This document shows positions 45,311-56,619 of a stretch of DNA of 64,000 nucleotides, piece after piece. Made by a program: the position numbers and the translations under genes. Below the pieces are notes generated by a model. The model ran no database searches, was not told the DNA's origin, and was given only the letters and a program-made list of their open reading frames with translations. Source of the stretch: an uncultured Lachnospiraceae bacterium (GTDB lineage Bacteria; Bacillota; Clostridia; Lachnospirales; Lachnospiraceae); NCBI GenBank assembly GCA_948473115.1, contig CAOKWI010000009.1, positions 22,200 through 86,199 of the forward strand. Reading direction: 5' to 3'. Within the stretch, counting starts at the first letter, position 1, and every line of letters starts with the position of its first letter.

Positions 45311-45550
45311 AATAATGCATATGAGGCCCTGATCAGTTTAAACTGTCAATTCTGATTTGTATTTGTCTATGCTCCTTTTGTGGTCTCGGTGAAGACGGCG
45401 TTTTATCTGCGGGCAGTGTACATGGCATATAATTCTTTGAAAGTGGCAGTTATATTCGCGCAGATTCACACGAAAAAACTTGTCAAAGGCATTTCTGGAC
45501 AGCGGGCTTGTCTTATCAATGGAAATATCATTGGACTTGGAGGAGAGAAG

Positions 45551-48500
45551 ATGAAATTGATGCATTCGGAATGGAGGGACAGGATTAATCATTGGATACG
45601 CACCCTGAAAGATGATTTTTATGTACCTTTGGGGGAGATTTCCTGGGAGGCCTTTACTACTATGGAATATTTAACGCCGCAAGAGGCGCAAGAGGGGATT
45701 TTCGCCCCGGTAAGTCCCGGATATACCTGGGGCAGAATATGGGAATATTGCTGGTTTCGCAGCAGTATTACGCTGCCCGCGGAAGCGGAAGGGCAGCGTA
45801 TTGTGATGGATTTGAAGCCTGATGGGGAGTCGGCGCTGTATGTCAACGGGAAGGCATTTGGCACCTATCGCGCATCCTGGGTGGACGAGCCCCATCATTT
45901 TATGGAGGATAATGTGCTCAGCTTCTGTGCGGAGAAGGGGGAGCATTTCGATCTTCTGATGGAGACTTATGCAGGGCACTTTTTCCCGGAAGCTCCCAGT
46001 GGAGGGTGTGCAACCGGCCCTGTGCTGCCGGGCGCATATATGGACAACGCGGTGGAAGGGGCAAGGCGGGTTCTTGGGAAATGCACGTATGGAATCTGGA
46101 ATGAGGATGCGTATCAGCTCTATATGGACGTGGATACTTTAAGCAGGCTTTTGGCTACTTTGGATGAAGTCTCTCTCCGGGCTGCAAAAATTGCAAAGGC
46201 GCTGGAACAGTTCACGTTGATCGTGGATTTTGAACAGTCCAGGGAGGGGCGGATCGTTTCGTATAAAAAAGCGAGAGAAGCGCTTCGCCCTGTTATGGAG
46301 GCAAAAAACGGTTCAAGCGCTCCGATATTCTATGCCATAGGCAATGCGCATCTTGATCTGGCATGGCTTTGGCCCATGGCGGAGACCTGCCGCAAGACTG
46401 AGAGAACTTTTGCGGCTCAGCTGCGGTTGATGGAAGAATACCCGGAGTATAAGTTTATTCAGAGTCAGCCGGCTTCTTATGAAATGTGTAAAAAGTATTA
46501 TCCGGAACTGTTTGCTAGGATCAAGGAGGCCGTAAAAAGCGGTCAGTGGATTGCGGACGGCGCTATGTGGGTGGAGCCGGATACCAATATGGCGGGAGGG
46601 GAAGCCCTGATTCGTCAGCTGGTGCATGGAAAACGATATTATCAGGAAGAGTTTGATGTGGACAGCCGTGTGCTCTGGCTGCCGGACACATTTGGATACA
46701 CGGCGGCCCTGCCGCAGATTTTGAGAGGCTGCGGTGTGGATTATCTGGTCACGCAGAAGATTTTCTGGTCCTACAATGAGGGGGAGCAGTTTCCGTATCA
46801 TTATTTCACATGGCAGGGAATGGACGGTTCACAGGTTGTTTCCTTTCTTCCCACCAGCTACACTTACCGCACGGATCCGCTGGAGGCGAACCGGATCTGG
46901 AAAAACCGGACGCAGATGCAGGATCTGGACGCGTTTCTGATGCCTTATGGGTATGGTGACGGCGGCGGGGGGCCGGCGAGAGATTTCGTGGAATATGCCA
47001 GACGCCAGGAAGATCTGGAAGGCAGTGTCAAAGTAAAAATGGCAGGCCCCATGGAATTTTTCAGGGATATGGAGGAAAAGGGCGGTCCTGTCAACACTTA
47101 CGTGGGAGAGCTGTATTTCAGCGCTCACAGGGGAACATACACTTCCCAGGCGGCGGTGAAGAAAAATAACCGGCGCTGCGAGCTTGCCATGCGGGAAATG
47201 GAGCTGTGGAGTTCTCTGGCACTGGACTGCGGACTGGACTATAAACAGGAGAAGGCGGATGCGCTGTGGAAGCAGCTATTGCTGCATCAGTTCCATGATA
47301 TTCTTCCCGGATCCTGCATCGGGCGTGTGTATGAGGAGGCAGGAAAGACATACCGTAAGATTTTGGACGGAGCCGGGGAACTGCAGCAGCAGGCGCTCGC
47401 GGCACTGACGGAGCAGGTAGAAGAGACGGGCGTGACGGTGTGGAATTCACTGAGCTTTCCCAGAAAGGCATTGGTGGAACTGCCTGAAACATTTGCAAAG
47501 GGCGCGAAAACGGTGGAAGGAAAGCCTGTGCCGGTCCGGCAGTCGGAAGGTCTCGTGAAAGCGCTGGTCACCATCCCACCCTGTGGTGCGGTTTCACTGA
47601 TTCCTGCAGAAGAAGCATTTTTGGAAGAGGACCTGGGAAAAGCGGCGGTCTCCGTAAAACCATGTGAGGATGGTTATGTATTGGAAAATGAACATGTCAG
47701 GGTGATAGTGAACCGCAGGGGCGAGATCATCTCCTTTGTGCTGAAGGAATCTGGCAGGGAATTTGCATCGGAGCCCATGAACAGGTTTCATCTGTATAAG
47801 GATGTGCCCCGTATGTTTGACGCGTGGGATATTGATTCCAATTACACGGAGCAGGAGATCGAAGCGCTCGTCGAAGCTTCGGTCGAGAGGATCGCAGAAG
47901 GTCTGGAGGGTGTGTTGAAGGTAAAAGGCAGGATCAGCGAATCCGGTTTCGTACAATACATCCGTCTGGCGGCAGACAGCAGGCGGCTTGAATTTGAGAC
48001 GGAGGTTGACTGGAAGGAACTGCACCGGCTGCTGAAAGTGGCATTCCCTGTGGAGGTATATTCTGAGAATGCGTTTAACGAGATTCAGTTTGGCTACGTG
48101 GAGCGTCCCACACATCGGTCCAGACCGTATGATAAAGACAGGTTTGAGGTATGCAACCATCGATACAGTGCGCTTTGTGACGGCGCCCACGGGGCAGCGG
48201 TGCTAAACGACTGCAAATATGGCATTAGCATGAACGGAAACGCACTGGCGCTGACGCTCCTTCGGGCATCCGCCACACCGGAGATGCGTGCGGATAATGG
48301 GATGCACACCTTTACGTATGCGTTTACCGCATGGGAAGGCAGCTTTGCGGACTGCGATGCGGTCAGACAGGGTTATGAGCTGAATGTGAAGCCGCCGGTT
48401 ACGACAGGGAGCAGAAAATGCTTCAGTGCGGTGGAGATAGCGAGAGAGAATGTGATTCTGGACACCATGAAACCTGCGGAGGATGGAAGCGGTGATATCA

Positions 48501-48685
48501 TCCTGCGTCTGTACGAATCCAAGAAGGCGGCGGTGGAGACGGAGGTATCTCTGCAATTTGGGGCAGGCAGGGCATACCTGTGCGATATGCTCGAAAATAT
48601 CACGGAAGAGTTAAGCGTCACAAATGGAAATATCGTCTTGCGGTTCCGTGCATTCGAGATTAAGACGATCCGGATAAAACGATGA
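45551..48685 (+). CDS. Alpha-mannosidase (GH38)
   Basis: IGNAHLDLAWLWPMAETCRKTERTF; DGAMWVEPDTNMAGGEALIRQL; RVLWLPDTFGYTAALPQIL. Confidence 0.95.
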   Translation: MKLMHSEWRDRINHWIRTLKDDFYVPLGEISWEAFTTMEYLTPQEAQEGIFAPVSPGYTWGRIWEYCWFRSSITLPAEAEGQRIVMDLKPDGESALYVNGKAFGTYRASWVDEPHHFMEDNVLSFCAEKGEHFDLLMETYAGHFFPEAPSGGCATGPVLPGAYMDNAVEGARRVLGKCTYGIWNEDAYQLYMDVDTLSRLLATLDEVSLRAAKIAKALEQFTLIVDFEQSREGRIVSYKKAREALRPVMEAKNGSSAPIFYAIGNAHLDLAWLWPMAETCRKTERTFAAQLRLMEEYPEYKFIQSQPASYEMCKKYYPELFARIKEAVKSGQWIADGAMWVEPDTNMAGGEALIRQLVHGKRYYQEEFDVDSRVLWLPDTFGYTAALPQILRGCGVDYLVTQKIFWSYNEGEQFPYHYFTWQGMDGSQVVSFLPTSYTYRTDPLEANRIWKNRTQMQDLDAFLMPYGYGDGGGGPARDFVEYARRQEDLEGSVKVKMAGPMEFFRDMEEKGGPVNTYVGELYFSAHRGTYTSQAAVKKNNRRCELAMREMELWSSLALDCGLDYKQEKADALWKQLLLHQFHDILPGSCIGRVYEEAGKTYRKILDGAGELQQQALAALTEQVEETGVTVWNSLSFPRKALVELPETFAKGAKTVEGKPVPVRQSEGLVKALVTIPPCGAVSLIPAEEAFLEEDLGKAAVSVKPCEDGYVLENEHVRVIVNRRGEIISFVLKESGREFASEPMNRFHLYKDVPRMFDAWDIDSNYTEQEIEALVEASVERIAEGLEGVLKVKGRISESGFVQYIRLAADSRRLEFETEVDWKELHRLLKVAFPVEVYSENAFNEIQFGYVERPTHRSRPYDKDRFEVCNHRYSALCDGAHGAAVLNDCKYGISMNGNALALTLLRASATPEMRADNGMHTFTYAFTAWEGSFADCDAVRQGYELNVKPPVTTGSRKCFSAVEIARENVILDTMKPAEDGSGDIILRLYESKKAAVETEVSLQFGAGRAYLCDMLENITEELSVTNGNIVLRFRAFEIKTIRIKR

Positions 48686-48725
48686 ACCGGAAACAGAATA
48701 AAAGAAAAGCAGGGAAGGGAAAGTT

Positions 48726-50762
48726 ATGGACAGAGAAACGATGGGAAGAAAAAAAAGAGTGGCTGTCAGACGTCTTCCGGCGGTGCCGCTCATTACCTGT
48801 GATCCTTATTTCAGCATATGGTCAGGAAGCGACAGGCTGTTTGAGACAGACACCATGCACTGGACAGGAAGGAGGAAAAGGATAACGGGGATTGCTGAGA
48901 TCGATGGAACAAGGTATCGCTTTATGGGTACGGGACAGGCTGTGCCCATGGAGCAGACGCAGATGGAAGTGACGGCCGTTTTTACCAGATACTATTTTGA
49001 GGCGGCAGGAGTGGAACTGACAGTCACCTTCTGGACGCCCTTGCTTCTGGACGATCTGGATGTGCTTTCAAGGCCATGCTCCTATCTGGACATGGAGGTT
49101 GGTTCACTGGACAGGGAAAGGCATCAGGTGGAGGTTCGCTGGGAATTTTCAGGGGAGCTGTGCTGCAACCGTGGACAGACGGAAAAAATCGGAGGAGGAA
49201 GTTACGAGCTGGATAAGATACAGACCGCATGGCTTGGGCTGCGGGAACAAAATCCCCTGGGGCATAGCGGTGACAGCATCACAATCGACTGGGGTTATCT
49301 TTATCTGGCTGTGGAGGAAAAGGCGGACAGAGAAGTCTTTTATTGTCAGGAGAGGCGCTGCCTTTGTGCGGTTTTCCATTTTTATACGGAGAAAGACAGG
49401 TATGCGGATGCGTCTCTGGTGGCTGCATATGACGATATCGCATCTGTCTGCTATTTCGGAAGAATGCTTCCCGGATACTGGGCACGGGACGGGAAAAGCA
49501 TTCATACTGCCATCGAGGAAGCAATCCGGGAGCGCAGCGCTTTAAAAACGCGGTGTGAGATCTTTGAACAGGAATTGGAGGAGGAGACCGGAAGGTTTGG
49601 AGAAGCGTACACGAAGATTTGCCACGCTGCCTATCGGCAGTCCATTGCGGCCCATAAGCTGATTGCGGATGAGAAGGGAAACGCTGTATTTATCTCCAAA
49701 GAGTGCCATTCCAACGGCTGTGCTGCCACTGTGGATGTGACCTATCCCTCCGCGCCGCTGTTTTTGGTATACAATCCGGAGCTGGTGCGGGCAATGCTGC
49801 GCCCGGTGCTGCACTTTGCCAAAATGCCGGCGTGGGGATATGACTTTGCGCCCCATGACGTAGGGCGTTATCCTTATGTGACGGGACAGGTCTACGGGCT
49901 GCAGGCTTATCGGCGCGCAGCGCAGGATTTAAACGGTGGAGAGGAAACGGGATTTGTTTATCCGATGTTATATCAAATGCCGCAGAGCGCGGGACTGTAT
50001 CAGCTTGAGAACCAGATGCCTGTGGAGGAAAGCGGCAATCTGCTCATTCTCGCGGCACAGCTGGCGAGGTGGGATCCCCAGGGGGAGAAGGACAGCCTAA
50101 AGGAGAATCTGCCGCTGTATGAGAAGTGGGTGAAATATCTCCTGCAATATGGCAGTGATCCTGGAGAACAGTTGTGTACGGACGATTTCGCGGGACATAT
50201 GGCACACAATGTAAATCTTTCCATAAAAGCAGTGATGGGCATAGAGGCATGTTCTATCCTGATGGAAGCGGCAGGAAGGAATGAGGAAGCTGCCTGTTAT
50301 CATGAAAAGGCGGCTGGGATGGCAAAAGAGGTGTACGGCAGGGCTTATGCTGCCGGTCATACAAAGCTGACCTTCGATGGAAGTGAGGAGGGCTGGAGTC
50401 TGAAATATAATGCCGTATGGGATTTGGTTTTCGGATCCGGTCTTTGGGAGCCGGAGTTTTATGCCAATGAGTCGGCATTCTACAGAAAGAAATGCAATCC
50501 TTATGGGGTACCGCTGGATTCCAGGGAAGATTACACGAAAAGCGACTGGATGATGTGGGCGGCGGCGATGGACGGCGAAGGACGGAATGTGGAAATGCTT
50601 GCCCAGCGTATCTTAAATTTCCTGGAAAACAGTCCCGACAGGGTTCCCTTTTCTGACTGGTATCAGACGATGAGCGGCAGGCAGCAGGGATTTCAAAATC
50701 GTACGGTGCAGGGAGGAATCTTTATGCCGCTATTCCTGGGCAGAAACGATACAAGAGATTGA
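48726..50762 (+). CDS. DUF4965/glutaminase-like glycan-locus enzyme
   Basis: VPLITCDPYFSIWSGSDRLFETDTMHWTGRRKRITG; CTDDFAGHMAHNVNLSIKAVMGI; SLKYNAVWDLVFG. Confidence 0.82.
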   Translation: MDRETMGRKKRVAVRRLPAVPLITCDPYFSIWSGSDRLFETDTMHWTGRRKRITGIAEIDGTRYRFMGTGQAVPMEQTQMEVTAVFTRYYFEAAGVELTVTFWTPLLLDDLDVLSRPCSYLDMEVGSLDRERHQVEVRWEFSGELCCNRGQTEKIGGGSYELDKIQTAWLGLREQNPLGHSGDSITIDWGYLYLAVEEKADREVFYCQERRCLCAVFHFYTEKDRYADASLVAAYDDIASVCYFGRMLPGYWARDGKSIHTAIEEAIRERSALKTRCEIFEQELEEETGRFGEAYTKICHAAYRQSIAAHKLIADEKGNAVFISKECHSNGCAATVDVTYPSAPLFLVYNPELVRAMLRPVLHFAKMPAWGYDFAPHDVGRYPYVTGQVYGLQAYRRAAQDLNGGEETGFVYPMLYQMPQSAGLYQLENQMPVEESGNLLILAAQLARWDPQGEKDSLKENLPLYEKWVKYLLQYGSDPGEQLCTDDFAGHMAHNVNLSIKAVMGIEACSILMEAAGRNEEAACYHEKAAGMAKEVYGRAYAAGHTKLTFDGSEEGWSLKYNAVWDLVFGSGLWEPEFYANESAFYRKKCNPYGVPLDSREDYTKSDWMMWAAAMDGEGRNVEMLAQRILNFLENSPDRVPFSDWYQTMSGRQQGFQNRTVQGGIFMPLFLGRNDTRD

Positions 50763-50807
50763 AAAGGGATCATGGGTTTGAGGGGGGTGAATATTGTACG
50801 GGTATCA

Positions 50808-50836
50808 TTGACAAAACGGGGAAGAGGGCATATAAT
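50808..50836 (+). promoter_or_regulatory. Perfect-consensus sigma-70-type promoter
   Basis: TTGACA (50808-50813), 17 nt, TATAAT (50831-50836). Confidence 0.85.
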
Positions 50837-50842
50837 TCCAAT

Positions 50843-50910
50843 AAAGGCACTATAGGAATCTATAGCGATAAGTCCTATGCGAGTAAAATCCATAGGACTT
50901 TTTTATTTTC
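50843..50910 (+). ncRNA. Attenuator-like leader or small RNA with intrinsic terminator
   Basis: Predicted start about 50843; terminator AAGTCCTATG-11 nt-CATAGGACTTTTTTATTTT; upstream TATAGGA can alternatively pair with TCCTATG. Confidence 0.55.
50870..50909 (+). terminator. Rho-independent terminator
   Basis: 10-bp stem AAGTCCTATG/CATAGGACTT followed by TTTTTATTTT. Confidence 0.8.
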
Positions 50911-50964
50911 CTGATTATTACAGGGAGGCATCTGCCCGCGCAAACCGGAAACACATGGAAGGGT

Positions 50965-51007
50965 CAAAAGGGTATGTGCGGTTTTGTCCTTCCCATATAC
51001 CCTTTTG
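50965..51007 (+). promoter_or_regulatory. Second structured segment in the leader of the solute-binding protein gene
   Basis: CAAAAGGGTAT (50965-50975) / ATACCCTTTTG (50997-51007), with a competing GGAAGG/CCTTCC pairing. Confidence 0.5.
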
Positions 51008-51089
51008 GCTCTTGTCATTTTAACAGACGGGCTCTATGCTCGAAGACGTAATATGTATTACAGAAAAGAAGAAAGGATGGAAGACAATA

Positions 51090-52763
51090 ATGAGGAAATG
51101 CAACAAAAAAAGGAAAATGACAGCAGGTATTCTGGCGGCAGTCATGGCTTTGACACTATGTGCCTGTGGCAGCGGAGGGGACAGCGGCTCCAGCAGCAGT
51201 GCCGCTACAGCTTCCGGGTCAGCAGAAGGAAGTGGAAGTCAGCAGGGAAGCCAGCAAGCGGACGCCCCTGCCGAAGGTGCAGCGGGGATTACATATCCAT
51301 TGGATGAAAAGGTTCATTTGACCATGGCAATGGTGGAGAATGCCGCAGTGACTGCAAACGCCACAGACCTTGCCCATACTCCTTTTGGCGAAGAGTGGCA
51401 GAGGGCTACGGGCGTGGAGCTGGAAATCATGCAGCTCGCGGATGTCGATGCGCTGAATCTGCTTTATGCCAGCGGGGAACTGCCGGATCTGATCTATTAC
51501 AGCGGCTATACGGGCGGAGAGCAGAAAGCCATCAAGGATCAGATTATTCAGCCGTTGAATGACTATATGGAATACGCGCCTGACCTGCAGGCAGTGATGG
51601 ACAGCAATGAACTCTACAAAAAGTCAAATATTACCATGGATGGAGATATTATTGGCTTTCCATTTATCAGGGGAGATGACTATCTGCGCACATCAGCAGG
51701 GCTGATCATCAGACAGGACTGGCTGGATGAGCTGAATATGGAAGTTCCGCAGACACCGGATGAATTGTATGAGGTACTGAAAGCCTTCAAAGAGCAGAAA
51801 GGGGCGACTGCGCCGTTTTCGGCAGCTAATTTCTGGCTGCGCGATGTAGGCATCGGACAAGGGGCAATCACATCTCCGTTTGGCCTGGTCAAAGGAGGCT
51901 TTTATCAGATCGATGGCAAGGTTCACTGGGGGTATGCTGAGAAGGAATACAAGGATCTGCTGGCCTTTCTTAACAAGCTTTACACAGAGGGACTTCTGGA
52001 TCCCAATTTCCAGTCTGTGGACGACAATACAGTAAGAGCAAACGTTATGAACGGGGATTCCGGTGTGACGTTTGGCGCGGTAGGCGGATATATCGGCAAC
52101 ATGATCCAGACGATGGAGGGAGATCCCACGTTTGATCTGACCGGCTTTGGCCCATTGGTGGCAAACCGCGGCGATCGCTCCATGAGCACACAGTATGATG
52201 CCGCGCTGAAGGGAATCTATGTAGTGGTCACTCCTCAGTGCAAAAACATCGAGGCGGCAGTAAAGTTCCTGAACTACGGATATACAGAGGAAGGGCATAA
52301 TCTGTTTAACTTCGGCATAGAAGGCGTGAGCTATACCATGGAAAACGGCGTTCCTACCTATACGGAGCTCATCATGCATAACCCGGAGGGATGGACAAAG
52401 CAGCTGGCATTGGCACAGTACACGATGGCATGGAACGACGGCCCCTTTGTACAGGATAAGCGGTACAGTGAGCAGTATGCGGATCTGCCTCAGCAGCAGG
52501 CAGCGCTGAAGAGCTGGACGACATCTGATGCCGCCATGTATGACATGCCGCCGGTGCGTGTGGCGGAAGAGAATGCAAGCGAGTATTCCAAGCTGACCGC
52601 TGATATCAATATTTTTATATCGGAAATGACGGTAAAATATATTACCGGCCTGGAGTCCCTCGACACATTTGAGACAAAATATCTTGGAACGTTACAGTCC
52701 ATGGGGGTGGATCGCGTAATTGAACTGCAGCAGGGAGCGCTGGATGATTTTAATGCGAGATAA
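51090..52763 (+). CDS. Extracellular solute-binding protein (sugar ABC transporter)
   Basis: Lipoprotein signal ILAAVMALTLCACGSGGDSGSSSS; GELPDLIYYSGYTGG. Confidence 0.92.
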   Translation: MRKCNKKRKMTAGILAAVMALTLCACGSGGDSGSSSSAATASGSAEGSGSQQGSQQADAPAEGAAGITYPLDEKVHLTMAMVENAAVTANATDLAHTPFGEEWQRATGVELEIMQLADVDALNLLYASGELPDLIYYSGYTGGEQKAIKDQIIQPLNDYMEYAPDLQAVMDSNELYKKSNITMDGDIIGFPFIRGDDYLRTSAGLIIRQDWLDELNMEVPQTPDELYEVLKAFKEQKGATAPFSAANFWLRDVGIGQGAITSPFGLVKGGFYQIDGKVHWGYAEKEYKDLLAFLNKLYTEGLLDPNFQSVDDNTVRANVMNGDSGVTFGAVGGYIGNMIQTMEGDPTFDLTGFGPLVANRGDRSMSTQYDAALKGIYVVVTPQCKNIEAAVKFLNYGYTEEGHNLFNFGIEGVSYTMENGVPTYTELIMHNPEGWTKQLALAQYTMAWNDGPFVQDKRYSEQYADLPQQQAALKSWTTSDAAMYDMPPVRVAEENASEYSKLTADINIFISEMTVKYITGLESLDTFETKYLGTLQSMGVDRVIELQQGALDDFNAR

Positions 52764-54723: not shown

Positions 54724-56619
54724 ATGAAAGTGATGAAGAAGAGAAGCGTTGTAATAGGGTGGCTCTGTTCTTATATGATTGTTTTGCTGATTCCCTTTGT
54801 CACCATATTTTCAAATTATGCGTGGAATAAAAAGGTAATTAAGAATGAAATTCTGGAGGCAAACCAGCTGGTGCTGGAGAACCTTGGCAATGAGATTGAC
54901 AGATATCTGAACCGGGAGTTTTTGTTTCGTTCCTTTCTGCTCCAGGAACGGACCTTTCAGAAGGTGATCAGCAGCAGAAAAAAGGATCCTCAGTTTTACT
55001 ATGATGTCGCGGAGCTGGTCAATGTGATGAGCAGCTACTCTTCAGATATGTCTTGTGTGATTTATCTGAAGGAGCAGGACTACGTGATCAGCAGCAGGGG
55101 CGCTAACGACAGCGCCCCCCTGTACAATGGAAAGAAGGTGGCTTTCCCCGATATCATGACATATGACGCCTGGATGGAGGTGCTGTCAGGAGAGTATCAG
55201 AATGATTTCTTTCTGGGGGAGGGTCTGTATTACGGGAATACGAAAAGCTGTCTGGTCTATGCCGACAGTGTCAATGATTATTTGCAGTATGAACCTTTTA
55301 ATCTGTTTGTGTGCATTCCCGTTTCCTCGTTGGAGGAGCTGACAAGGTTACTGCCGGAGGGCTCTGTACTCCTGGTCGGGGTAGAGGGAAAGACTGTGCT
55401 GTCCCTGTCCAATCAGGGGATGGAGGAAGCGCGGATGGAACCGGAGCGAGGATGGGACGGCGGGGCAGCCGCAGAGACAGACCTTTATATGGAGATCTGT
55501 AAGTCGTCAAAAATCGGGAAAACACAGTATTGCCTGATGATTCCGAAAAATAAGTTCTGGGAGAAATTGAGGCAGGTTCGCAATATGTTCGGGATCAGCA
55601 TAGCTGTGACGCTTCTGGTGGGGGCTGTGTGCGTGTCAGTGCTGCTAAACAGAAATTTCCAGCCTTTGGCCAGGCTGGTGCGGGCTATGACGGGGGGAAG
55701 CGGGAAACGGCAAAATGAATTTAAGCTGATAGAGGACGCTTATTCCAGACTGATGGGGGAAACAAATGTGCTGCACAGGCACATTGCCATACAGGCAGAA
55801 CAGATGCGAAACAACGATCTGCTGGCTGTGATGAAGGGAAGACGTGTTGAAACTGTGGAAAATATCCGGCAGATAGACGGAAAGGATATGATACTGGCAG
55901 GCTTTAGGGTTCCCATGATGGATGAGAAACAGATCCTGCAGGATGAAGTGATGTTGTATGTGGCAGACAATATCTTTTCGGAATTGATGTCGGAATATGA
56001 ATTTTACAGAATAGAGGATGGACAGCTGTTGTTTTATCTGTTCCTGTGTGATGAAAAAGAACGGGAGCAACGGGAAAACATATACAAATTCGCCAGGCAT
56101 CTGTGTGACTTTTTGAAGGAGCGAGAGGTATCTCTGTGCGGTGTGCTCAGCAGCACTGTCAATGGGACGGAGCATCTGCGTTTTGCCTATCAGGAGGTGC
56201 TGGAGGGATTAGAGAGTGTGAAGATGTTCAGGAAGTGCGGCATAGTGGACATGGAGGAACAGCAGATCTCCGGCGGCAAAGGAATCGTCAGGAGTGTCTC
56301 CCAGTATGTGGAGGAGCATATTGCGGACAGCGAGTTAAACATTAACACCGTCGCAGAGGGAATCGGACGGAATCCGAAGTATATATCCAGAATATTCAAG
56401 GAAGAGACCGGTGAAGGAATTTTGGATTATGTAAACCGGCAGCGGATCAGAAAGGCGCAGGTGTTGATGCGGTCAGAGAATATGACGCTGGAACAGATTG
56501 GCGGCATGGTGGGATATGCCAGCTCCAAGACCTTTCGCCGGGCATTCCAGAAGGAGACCGGCATGATGCCTGGAGATTATCTGAAGGATAATAAGAAGGA
56601 GGAGGGATTGTCAAAATGA
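54724..56619 (+). CDS. Membrane-sensor AraC family regulator
   Basis: N-terminal TM and extracellular region; C-terminal AraC HTH INTVAEGIGRNPKYISRIFKEETGEGILDYVNRQRIRKAQVLMRSENMTLEQIGGMVGYASSKTFRRAFQKETG. Confidence 0.93.
   Translation: MKVMKKRSVVIGWLCSYMIVLLIPFVTIFSNYAWNKKVIKNEILEANQLVLENLGNEIDRYLNREFLFRSFLLQERTFQKVISSRKKDPQFYYDVAELVNVMSSYSSDMSCVIYLKEQDYVISSRGANDSAPLYNGKKVAFPDIMTYDAWMEVLSGEYQNDFFLGEGLYYGNTKSCLVYADSVNDYLQYEPFNLFVCIPVSSLEELTRLLPEGSVLLVGVEGKTVLSLSNQGMEEARMEPERGWDGGAAAETDLYMEICKSSKIGKTQYCLMIPKNKFWEKLRQVRNMFGISIAVTLLVGAVCVSVLLNRNFQPLARLVRAMTGGSGKRQNEFKLIEDAYSRLMGETNVLHRHIAIQAEQMRNNDLLAVMKGRRVETVENIRQIDGKDMILAGFRVPMMDEKQILQDEVMLYVADNIFSELMSEYEFYRIEDGQLLFYLFLCDEKEREQRENIYKFARHLCDFLKEREVSLCGVLSSTVNGTEHLRFAYQEVLEGLESVKMFRKCGIVDMEEQQISGGKGIVRSVSQYVEEHIADSELNINTVAEGIGRNPKYISRIFKEETGEGILDYVNRQRIRKAQVLMRSENMTLEQIGGMVGYASSKTFRRAFQKETGMMPGDYLKDNKKEEGLSK

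Follow-up and report, generated by a model that had tools for sequence, protein, structure and literature searches.

The segment at positions 50843–50909 of the window (the whole stretch of DNA analysed, 64,000 nt from an uncultured Lachnospiraceae bacterium) is read here, with a probability of roughly 60%, as an orphan, promoter-driven copy of a small attenuator family whose canonical members would permit conditional read-through into drug-efflux genes. On present sequence comparisons, the family appears to be undescribed and has no Rfam entry. Its anatomy, conservation, covariation and gene contexts can be read directly from the aligned copies, as can a separate promoter consensus further downstream in the window. 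The element comprises two hairpins in the layout AGGCRC, covarying hairpin, NGATAAGTCCTATG, loop, CATAGGACTT and U-tract. The window copy and its promoter are composed of the following features:

50796–50807, plus strand: GTACGGGTATCA, directly 5' of the −35 hexamer, 9/12 against the MarR_long half-site (motif comparison, suggestive only)
50808–50836, plus strand: sigma-A promoter with perfect consensus, TTGACA-17-TATAAT, 12/12 (motif match)
50843–50909, plus strand: predicted transcript of the orphan attenuator element, ending in the U-tract (predicted start, alignment of copies)
50845–50848, plus strand: AGGC, conserved in 37/38 aligned copies and outside the search pattern (alignment)
50850–50865, plus strand: hairpin 1, CTATAG-GAAT-CTATAG, whose pairs covary in relatives (covariation)
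50867–50869, plus strand: GAT of the invariant linker leading into the terminator arm (GATAAGTCCTATG), its conservation partly fixed by the search pattern
50870–50900, plus strand: intrinsic terminator hairpin, AAGTCCTATG-N11-CATAGGACTT (folding, alignment, inverted repeat)
50899–50909, plus strand: terminator U-tract (sequence)

The exact-consensus promoter had already been reported in a preliminary description of this DNA, and it is the sole 12/12 site in the window. Perfect sigma-A sites with a spacer of 16–18 nt occur 38 times in the window's genome, compared with 3 occurrences of a reversed control pattern, and for this reason most of them are taken to be real. Thirty of the genome sites could be examined, and an intrinsic terminator lies within 130 nt downstream of this one alone; the background in random 130-mers of the window is 11 in 1000 (1.1%). 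The conserved motif AAGGCRC has its 5' end at the predicted start, A50843, and the terminator (50870–50900 with its U-tract) is reached within 70 nt of this start. As in intrinsic-terminator attenuators generally, the terminator of the element lies between a promoter or upstream gene and a downstream gene.

A second copy, 64 nt long and 91% identical (G000:C66:23421), is present in the same genome; it matches window positions 50845–50908, a span that begins near the predicted start, reaches the U-tract and leaves out the promoter. The two copies differ at few positions, all of them in the loops of the two hairpins or at the 5' and 3' edges; the stems and the linker are unchanged. An exact pattern built on the terminator half matched 51 stretches among 85,462 species genomes, five of which (L021, L024, L036, L037 and L055) have no hairpin 1 and were excluded. 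Clostridia yielded about 45 further copies altogether, some of them from the genus of the window. In one of the excluded stretches (L036:2144–2181, minus strand), the terminator stem GATAAGTCCTATG...CATAGGACTT stands close behind another gene, which suggests either chance or a truncated relative. In L051 (1400–1478, minus strand), a near duplication enlarges hairpin 1 (ATATAGATTACTGATATAGATTACTATAG).

The family is rare. A covariance-model search of about 780 genomes of the order and class yielded, besides the two copies of the window's genome, only L094 and L114 as real members, and the other matches examined resemble ordinary terminators. Within the genus, a model search matched 5 of 138 genomes at E up to 0.01; one of these matches (L010) is weak and not at a MarR-pump locus. 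None of the 66 genus genomes that are more than 90% complete was matched, and several copies sit on contigs of about 4 kb. The MarR-element-pump cassette is thus patchy, and may be mobile or strain-variable. Similar DNA was sought in phages and plasmids and none was found; two matches on viral contigs, which have no U-tract or hairpin 1, are due to chance, and a phage or plasmid origin was set aside.

In an alignment of 38 distinct copies, the two-hairpin structure has pairing in 99.3% of its cells, compared with 96.1% after shuffling, and pairing falls to 14–49% when the partners are slid by up to 3 columns. Covariation is present both in hairpin 1 and in the upper terminator stem. The second pair of hairpin 1 is U-A in 23 copies and C-G in 15, the third is A-U in 36 and G-C in 2, and there is no half-changed intermediate at these pairs in any of the 38 copies. 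None of 500 shuffles reached the covariation score. The U-A/C-G state changed at least seven times on a rapidly built tree of ABC proteins, many forks of which are weakly supported. AGGC and hairpin 1 lie outside the search pattern; GATAAGTCCTATG and AGGACTT lie inside it, so that their conservation, being fixed by the pattern, is overstated. For these two motifs the independent copies are those found by other means, namely the window, C66, L003 and L094. The mean pairwise identity of AGGC is 98%, against 47% at fourfold-degenerate sites of the ABC genes and 34–56% in the loops and flank; by this comparison AGGC is under purifying selection. The loops of the two hairpins differ between copies in sequence and length (mean pairwise identity 56% and 44%), the separation of the terminator arms ranging from 9 to 15 nt and the loop of hairpin 1 being variable as well. 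Judged from these patterns, the conserved unit is an RNA structure rather than a DNA site.

Every copy with both flanks readable has a MarR-family gene upstream and a drug-efflux gene downstream. The latter is mostly a DrrA-type ABC ATPase followed by an ABC-2 permease, or a MepA-like MATE transporter in L031, L040 and L043, and the U-tract usually abuts the ribosome-binding site of the pump gene almost directly. The ABC gene is truncated or fused to another ABC gene in L029, L061 and L062, where the first DrrA-like codons run into a different ABC protein or a stop; these breaks suggest recombination close to the Walker A motif, or else joins made in assembly. The MarR genes beside the element belong to two distantly related types, one with ACAGGTACCTGTA-like sites around its own promoter and the other with CTAACAGAGTTAGTAAT-like sites, and both have the same RNA element downstream. 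Two MarR types with different operators share one common RNA; therefore, the element is not a MarR operator. The MarR_long homologues at loci in which the element was not found retain the first kind of operator site. This was seen in L199 and L200 (58% and 49% identity), which keep AGGTACCTGT-like operators upstream; in L199, whose downstream side was read (L200 was read upstream), the RNA element is absent after the MarR gene. More broadly, the element was absent wherever the flank was read from ABC homologues of 60–66% identity and from MarR_long homologues of 45–58% identity.

The 70-nt RNA from 50843 folds at −20.7 kcal/mol (z = −4.0), a value equalled by none of 200 shuffles. Three segments noted in the preliminary description, TATAGGA, TCCTATG and CATAGGA, all lie where it had placed them. 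Hairpin 1 (50850–50855 paired with 50860–50865), which it had overlooked, forms first in the predicted nascent series of the window copy; TATAGGA:TCCTATG is then the minimum-energy fold at 3' ends 50881–50891, its inner pairs having a probability of about 0.9, and the terminator displaces it from 50896 on. The proposed pairing of the first two segments is thus predicted for the nascent RNA of the window copy, but as the conserved switch it is not supported: the GGA is peculiar to this copy, and the corresponding pairing between the first arm of hairpin 1 and the terminator arm (candidate B) is favoured in 15 of 38 copies and absent in several, for example L040 and L043. In another possible pairing (candidate A), A50845–G50847 would pair with C50874–U50876 and C50848 with G50867, hairpin 1 being enclosed and AUAAGU bulged. 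The AGG:CCU and C:G pairs of candidate A are possible in 37 of 38 copies, yet it is favoured in the absence of ligand in only 2 of 38 nascent folds. The AGG:CCU pairs never vary; since the ABC (60–66%) and MarR_long (45–58%) homologues showed no element wherever their flank was read, they supplied no divergent copies in which covariation of these pairs could appear. Neither candidate prevails in the nascent RNA of every relative. Compared with the antiterminators drawn, the terminator is much the more stable (mean −19 versus −1 kcal/mol), and switching would therefore need a ligand, a protein or kinetic control. Given the weakness of both candidates against the finished terminator, a ligand, a protein or timing would have to intervene before the 3' arm is synthesised.

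From these data we infer termination, conditional read-through, a signal and any job of the orphan RNA along the following lines. In the standard operon, the element would stand after an autorepressed MarR-family gene and before a drug-efflux gene, either a DrrA/DrrB-type ABC exporter or a MepA-like MATE. Polymerase that has passed the MarR gene would mostly halt at the intrinsic terminator of the element. A signal would alter the two-hairpin fold, probably by trapping the terminator's 5' arm (AAGTCCTATG) in an alternative structure around hairpin 1, and the altered fold would allow read-through into the pump gene. Conditional termination of pump transcription is the likely role of the element, and the obvious interpretation for a conserved, covarying RNA that ends in a terminator and stands between regulator and pump. 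In the window, the consensus promoter just before the motif would most likely give a terminated RNA about 60 nt long, and read-through towards the transporter operon that follows would be slight or regulated.

A switch-free, fixed terminator would explain part of the data. Under this alternative, which is improbable but the best placed of those considered, a constitutive intercistronic terminator with fixed read-through and no signal would damp the pump relative to MarR, and the window copy would be the relic of a deleted MarR-pump operon. Two observations speak for it: the terminator is highly stable in every copy, and the covariation supports no antiterminator. A plain terminator, however, needs no conserved AGGC, no linker and no covarying upstream hairpin, all of which are kept while loops and flanks drift. 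Regarding the relic, both the MarR gene and the pump gene are absent from the window copy. The operator half-site ATACAGGTACCA occupies in MarR_long promoters the place that GTACGGGTATCA occupies in the orphan promoter, and 0.11% of window 12-mers match that half-site as well (9/12). This likeness, which deletion of the intervening genes would leave, is a weak hint that the window unit derives from a MarR-pump operon that has lost its genes. Against mere relic status, both promoter hexamers are kept and the copy differs from its C66 paralogue in loops and edges only.

Only slightly less plausible is a trans-acting role, in which the orphan RNA of about 60 nt acts as a small RNA or decoy, either titrating the ligand or protein of C66's canonical attenuator or pairing with it. 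The strong promoter, the predicted start exactly at the motif, a terminated unit that contains no gene, and a stem sequence identical to that of the C66 copy are all consistent with such a role. Nevertheless, the orphan arrangement is known from one draft genome, and no second example was found in 44 further genomes with canonical copies.

The preliminary description had proposed a candidate attenuator, riboswitch or small RNA regulating the glycan transporter. In kind, this fits 50843–50909, which contains the promoter-proximal terminator of a conserved, covarying RNA; regulation of the glycan transporter is not supported. The DNA between the element and the transporter operon, and the genes concerned, are organised as follows:

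50982–51010, plus strand: TTTTGTCC-N13-TTTTGGCT, direct repeats of 21 bp, unique in the window, that probably serve as a DNA operator for an AraC-type activator
51012–51040, plus strand: the transporter operon's own promoter, TTGTCA-17-TATGCT (motif; counterpart in G026)
51090–52763, plus strand: solute-binding protein (SBP; SBP_bac_1), first gene of the transporter operon (domain match)
54724–56619, plus strand: AraC-family regulator with an HTH_18 domain, probable user of 50982–51010 (inferred from position)

A glycan-responsive attenuator of the SBP operon, as first proposed, would have in its favour that the element lies on the same strand, about 180 nt 5' of the SBP start codon, and that, in the window copy, the terminator has a competing nascent fold. 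The element was absent from all the upstream regions read of homologous SBP operons (at 71%, 59% and lower identity), which have their own promoter-proximal TTTTGTCC sites, and its other copies are tied to efflux genes. Conservation at orthologous loci, the absence of which had been named beforehand as refuting, is thus lacking for the SBP locus and present for the RNA itself. With SBP homologues devoid of the element and relatives placed before drug-efflux genes, the RNA probably does not sense the glycan, and regulation of the glycan transporter by it is very doubtful. Upstream of the transporter operon, at 45380–50762, the window contains a GH38 alpha-mannosidase gene and a GtaA-like (DUF4964/DUF5127) gene, and the neighbourhood is probably a mannose-glycan use cluster.

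A second RNA switch had also been suggested around GGAAGG/CCTTCC. The inverted repeats exist (50959–50978 / 50994–51013), but the region contains 21-bp direct repeats, overlooked at first, which end just before the SBP −35 hexamer and have comparable sites upstream of related SBP genes. The SBP gene of G026 (71% identical) is preceded by TTTTGTCC-N13-TTTTGTCT, again 21 bp, before TTGTAT-17-TATGCT; in L143 and in L145, a paralogue in the window's genome, the repeats are 20 bp apart, and L140, L141 and L142 have an inverted GGACAAAA/TTTTGTCC pair instead. In total, TTTTGTC(C/T)-like sites were found upstream of six related SBP operons, all without the RNA element, and other, more distant SBP loci examined showed no such repeats. 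Operators of AraC-family regulators consist of two direct repeats two helical turns apart that abut the −35 hexamer; likewise, the putative site at 50982–51010 abuts the −35 and an AraC-family gene lies downstream in the same cluster. It is therefore probably an AraC-type operator, and 50957–51013 is more likely a DNA operator with its own promoter than an RNA switch.

That the palindromes of the element itself are a transcription factor's DNA operator rather than RNA structure is the least credible reading, since, although both stems are inverted repeats beside regulator genes, the distance between the terminator arms and the loop of hairpin 1 vary, a U-tract follows, the stems covary, and the MarR operators lie elsewhere and differ between the two MarR types.

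The attenuator proposed here resembles several known systems. In ribonucleic antiterminators of the LicT/SacY type, the 3' side of a hairpin overlaps the 5' arm of a terminator, and the element could behave similarly; unlike them, it has no BglG-family regulator beside it and its sequence is dissimilar. The guanidine-IV riboswitch, with its Gd4v variant, comes closest in layout, being an ON-switch before efflux genes, including those of MATE type, with two hairpins of which the 3' one is an intrinsic terminator; its aptamer of about 88 nt has conserved loops joined by a pseudoknot or kissing interaction, and the Gd4v report mentions gut bacteria (PMC7736828, PMC9788692, PMC11611296). The present element shares the two hairpins, the 3' terminator and the downstream efflux genes. 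Its loops, in contrast, vary freely, and its conserved nucleotides belong to the 5' flank, linker and terminator arm. Membership in the guanidine-IV class was ruled out, as the loops are not conserved and there is no Rfam match. patAB of Streptococcus pneumoniae and vmlR of Bacillus subtilis are also reported to have an attenuator before the resistance or efflux gene, the opening or disruption of which raises expression (PMC4319486, PMC9226507). To that extent they are like the element, which differs in standing between regulator gene and pump in one operon and in having no common short upstream reading frame that was noticed by eye on the aligned copies. The Rfam comparison suggested for the leader was run: Rfam 15 gave no match in the window at the gathering cut-off, and nothing overlapped the element at E up to 5 in L001, L002, L003, L005, L009, L022, L040 and L094. 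A limited literature search found no description of it.

Since two MarR types and two kinds of pump share the element, the signal is probably general, such as a drug class or toxic metabolite, rather than pump-specific. More speculatively, the element could define a riboswitch class of its own, only about 60 nt long, with a pocket for a drug or toxic metabolite built from hairpin 1, the AGGC flank and the GATAAG linker. It would provide a second, RNA-level check on the MarR-controlled efflux operons of gut Clostridia, and the window copy would act in trans as a sponge or small RNA; this extension is considered unlikely. The orphan, whose predicted start falls exactly at the motif, delimits the minimal element and thereby offers a short test template. 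If the canonical element does switch, it would represent RNA-level control of multidrug efflux in gut bacteria, with a ligand that could easily be screened for.
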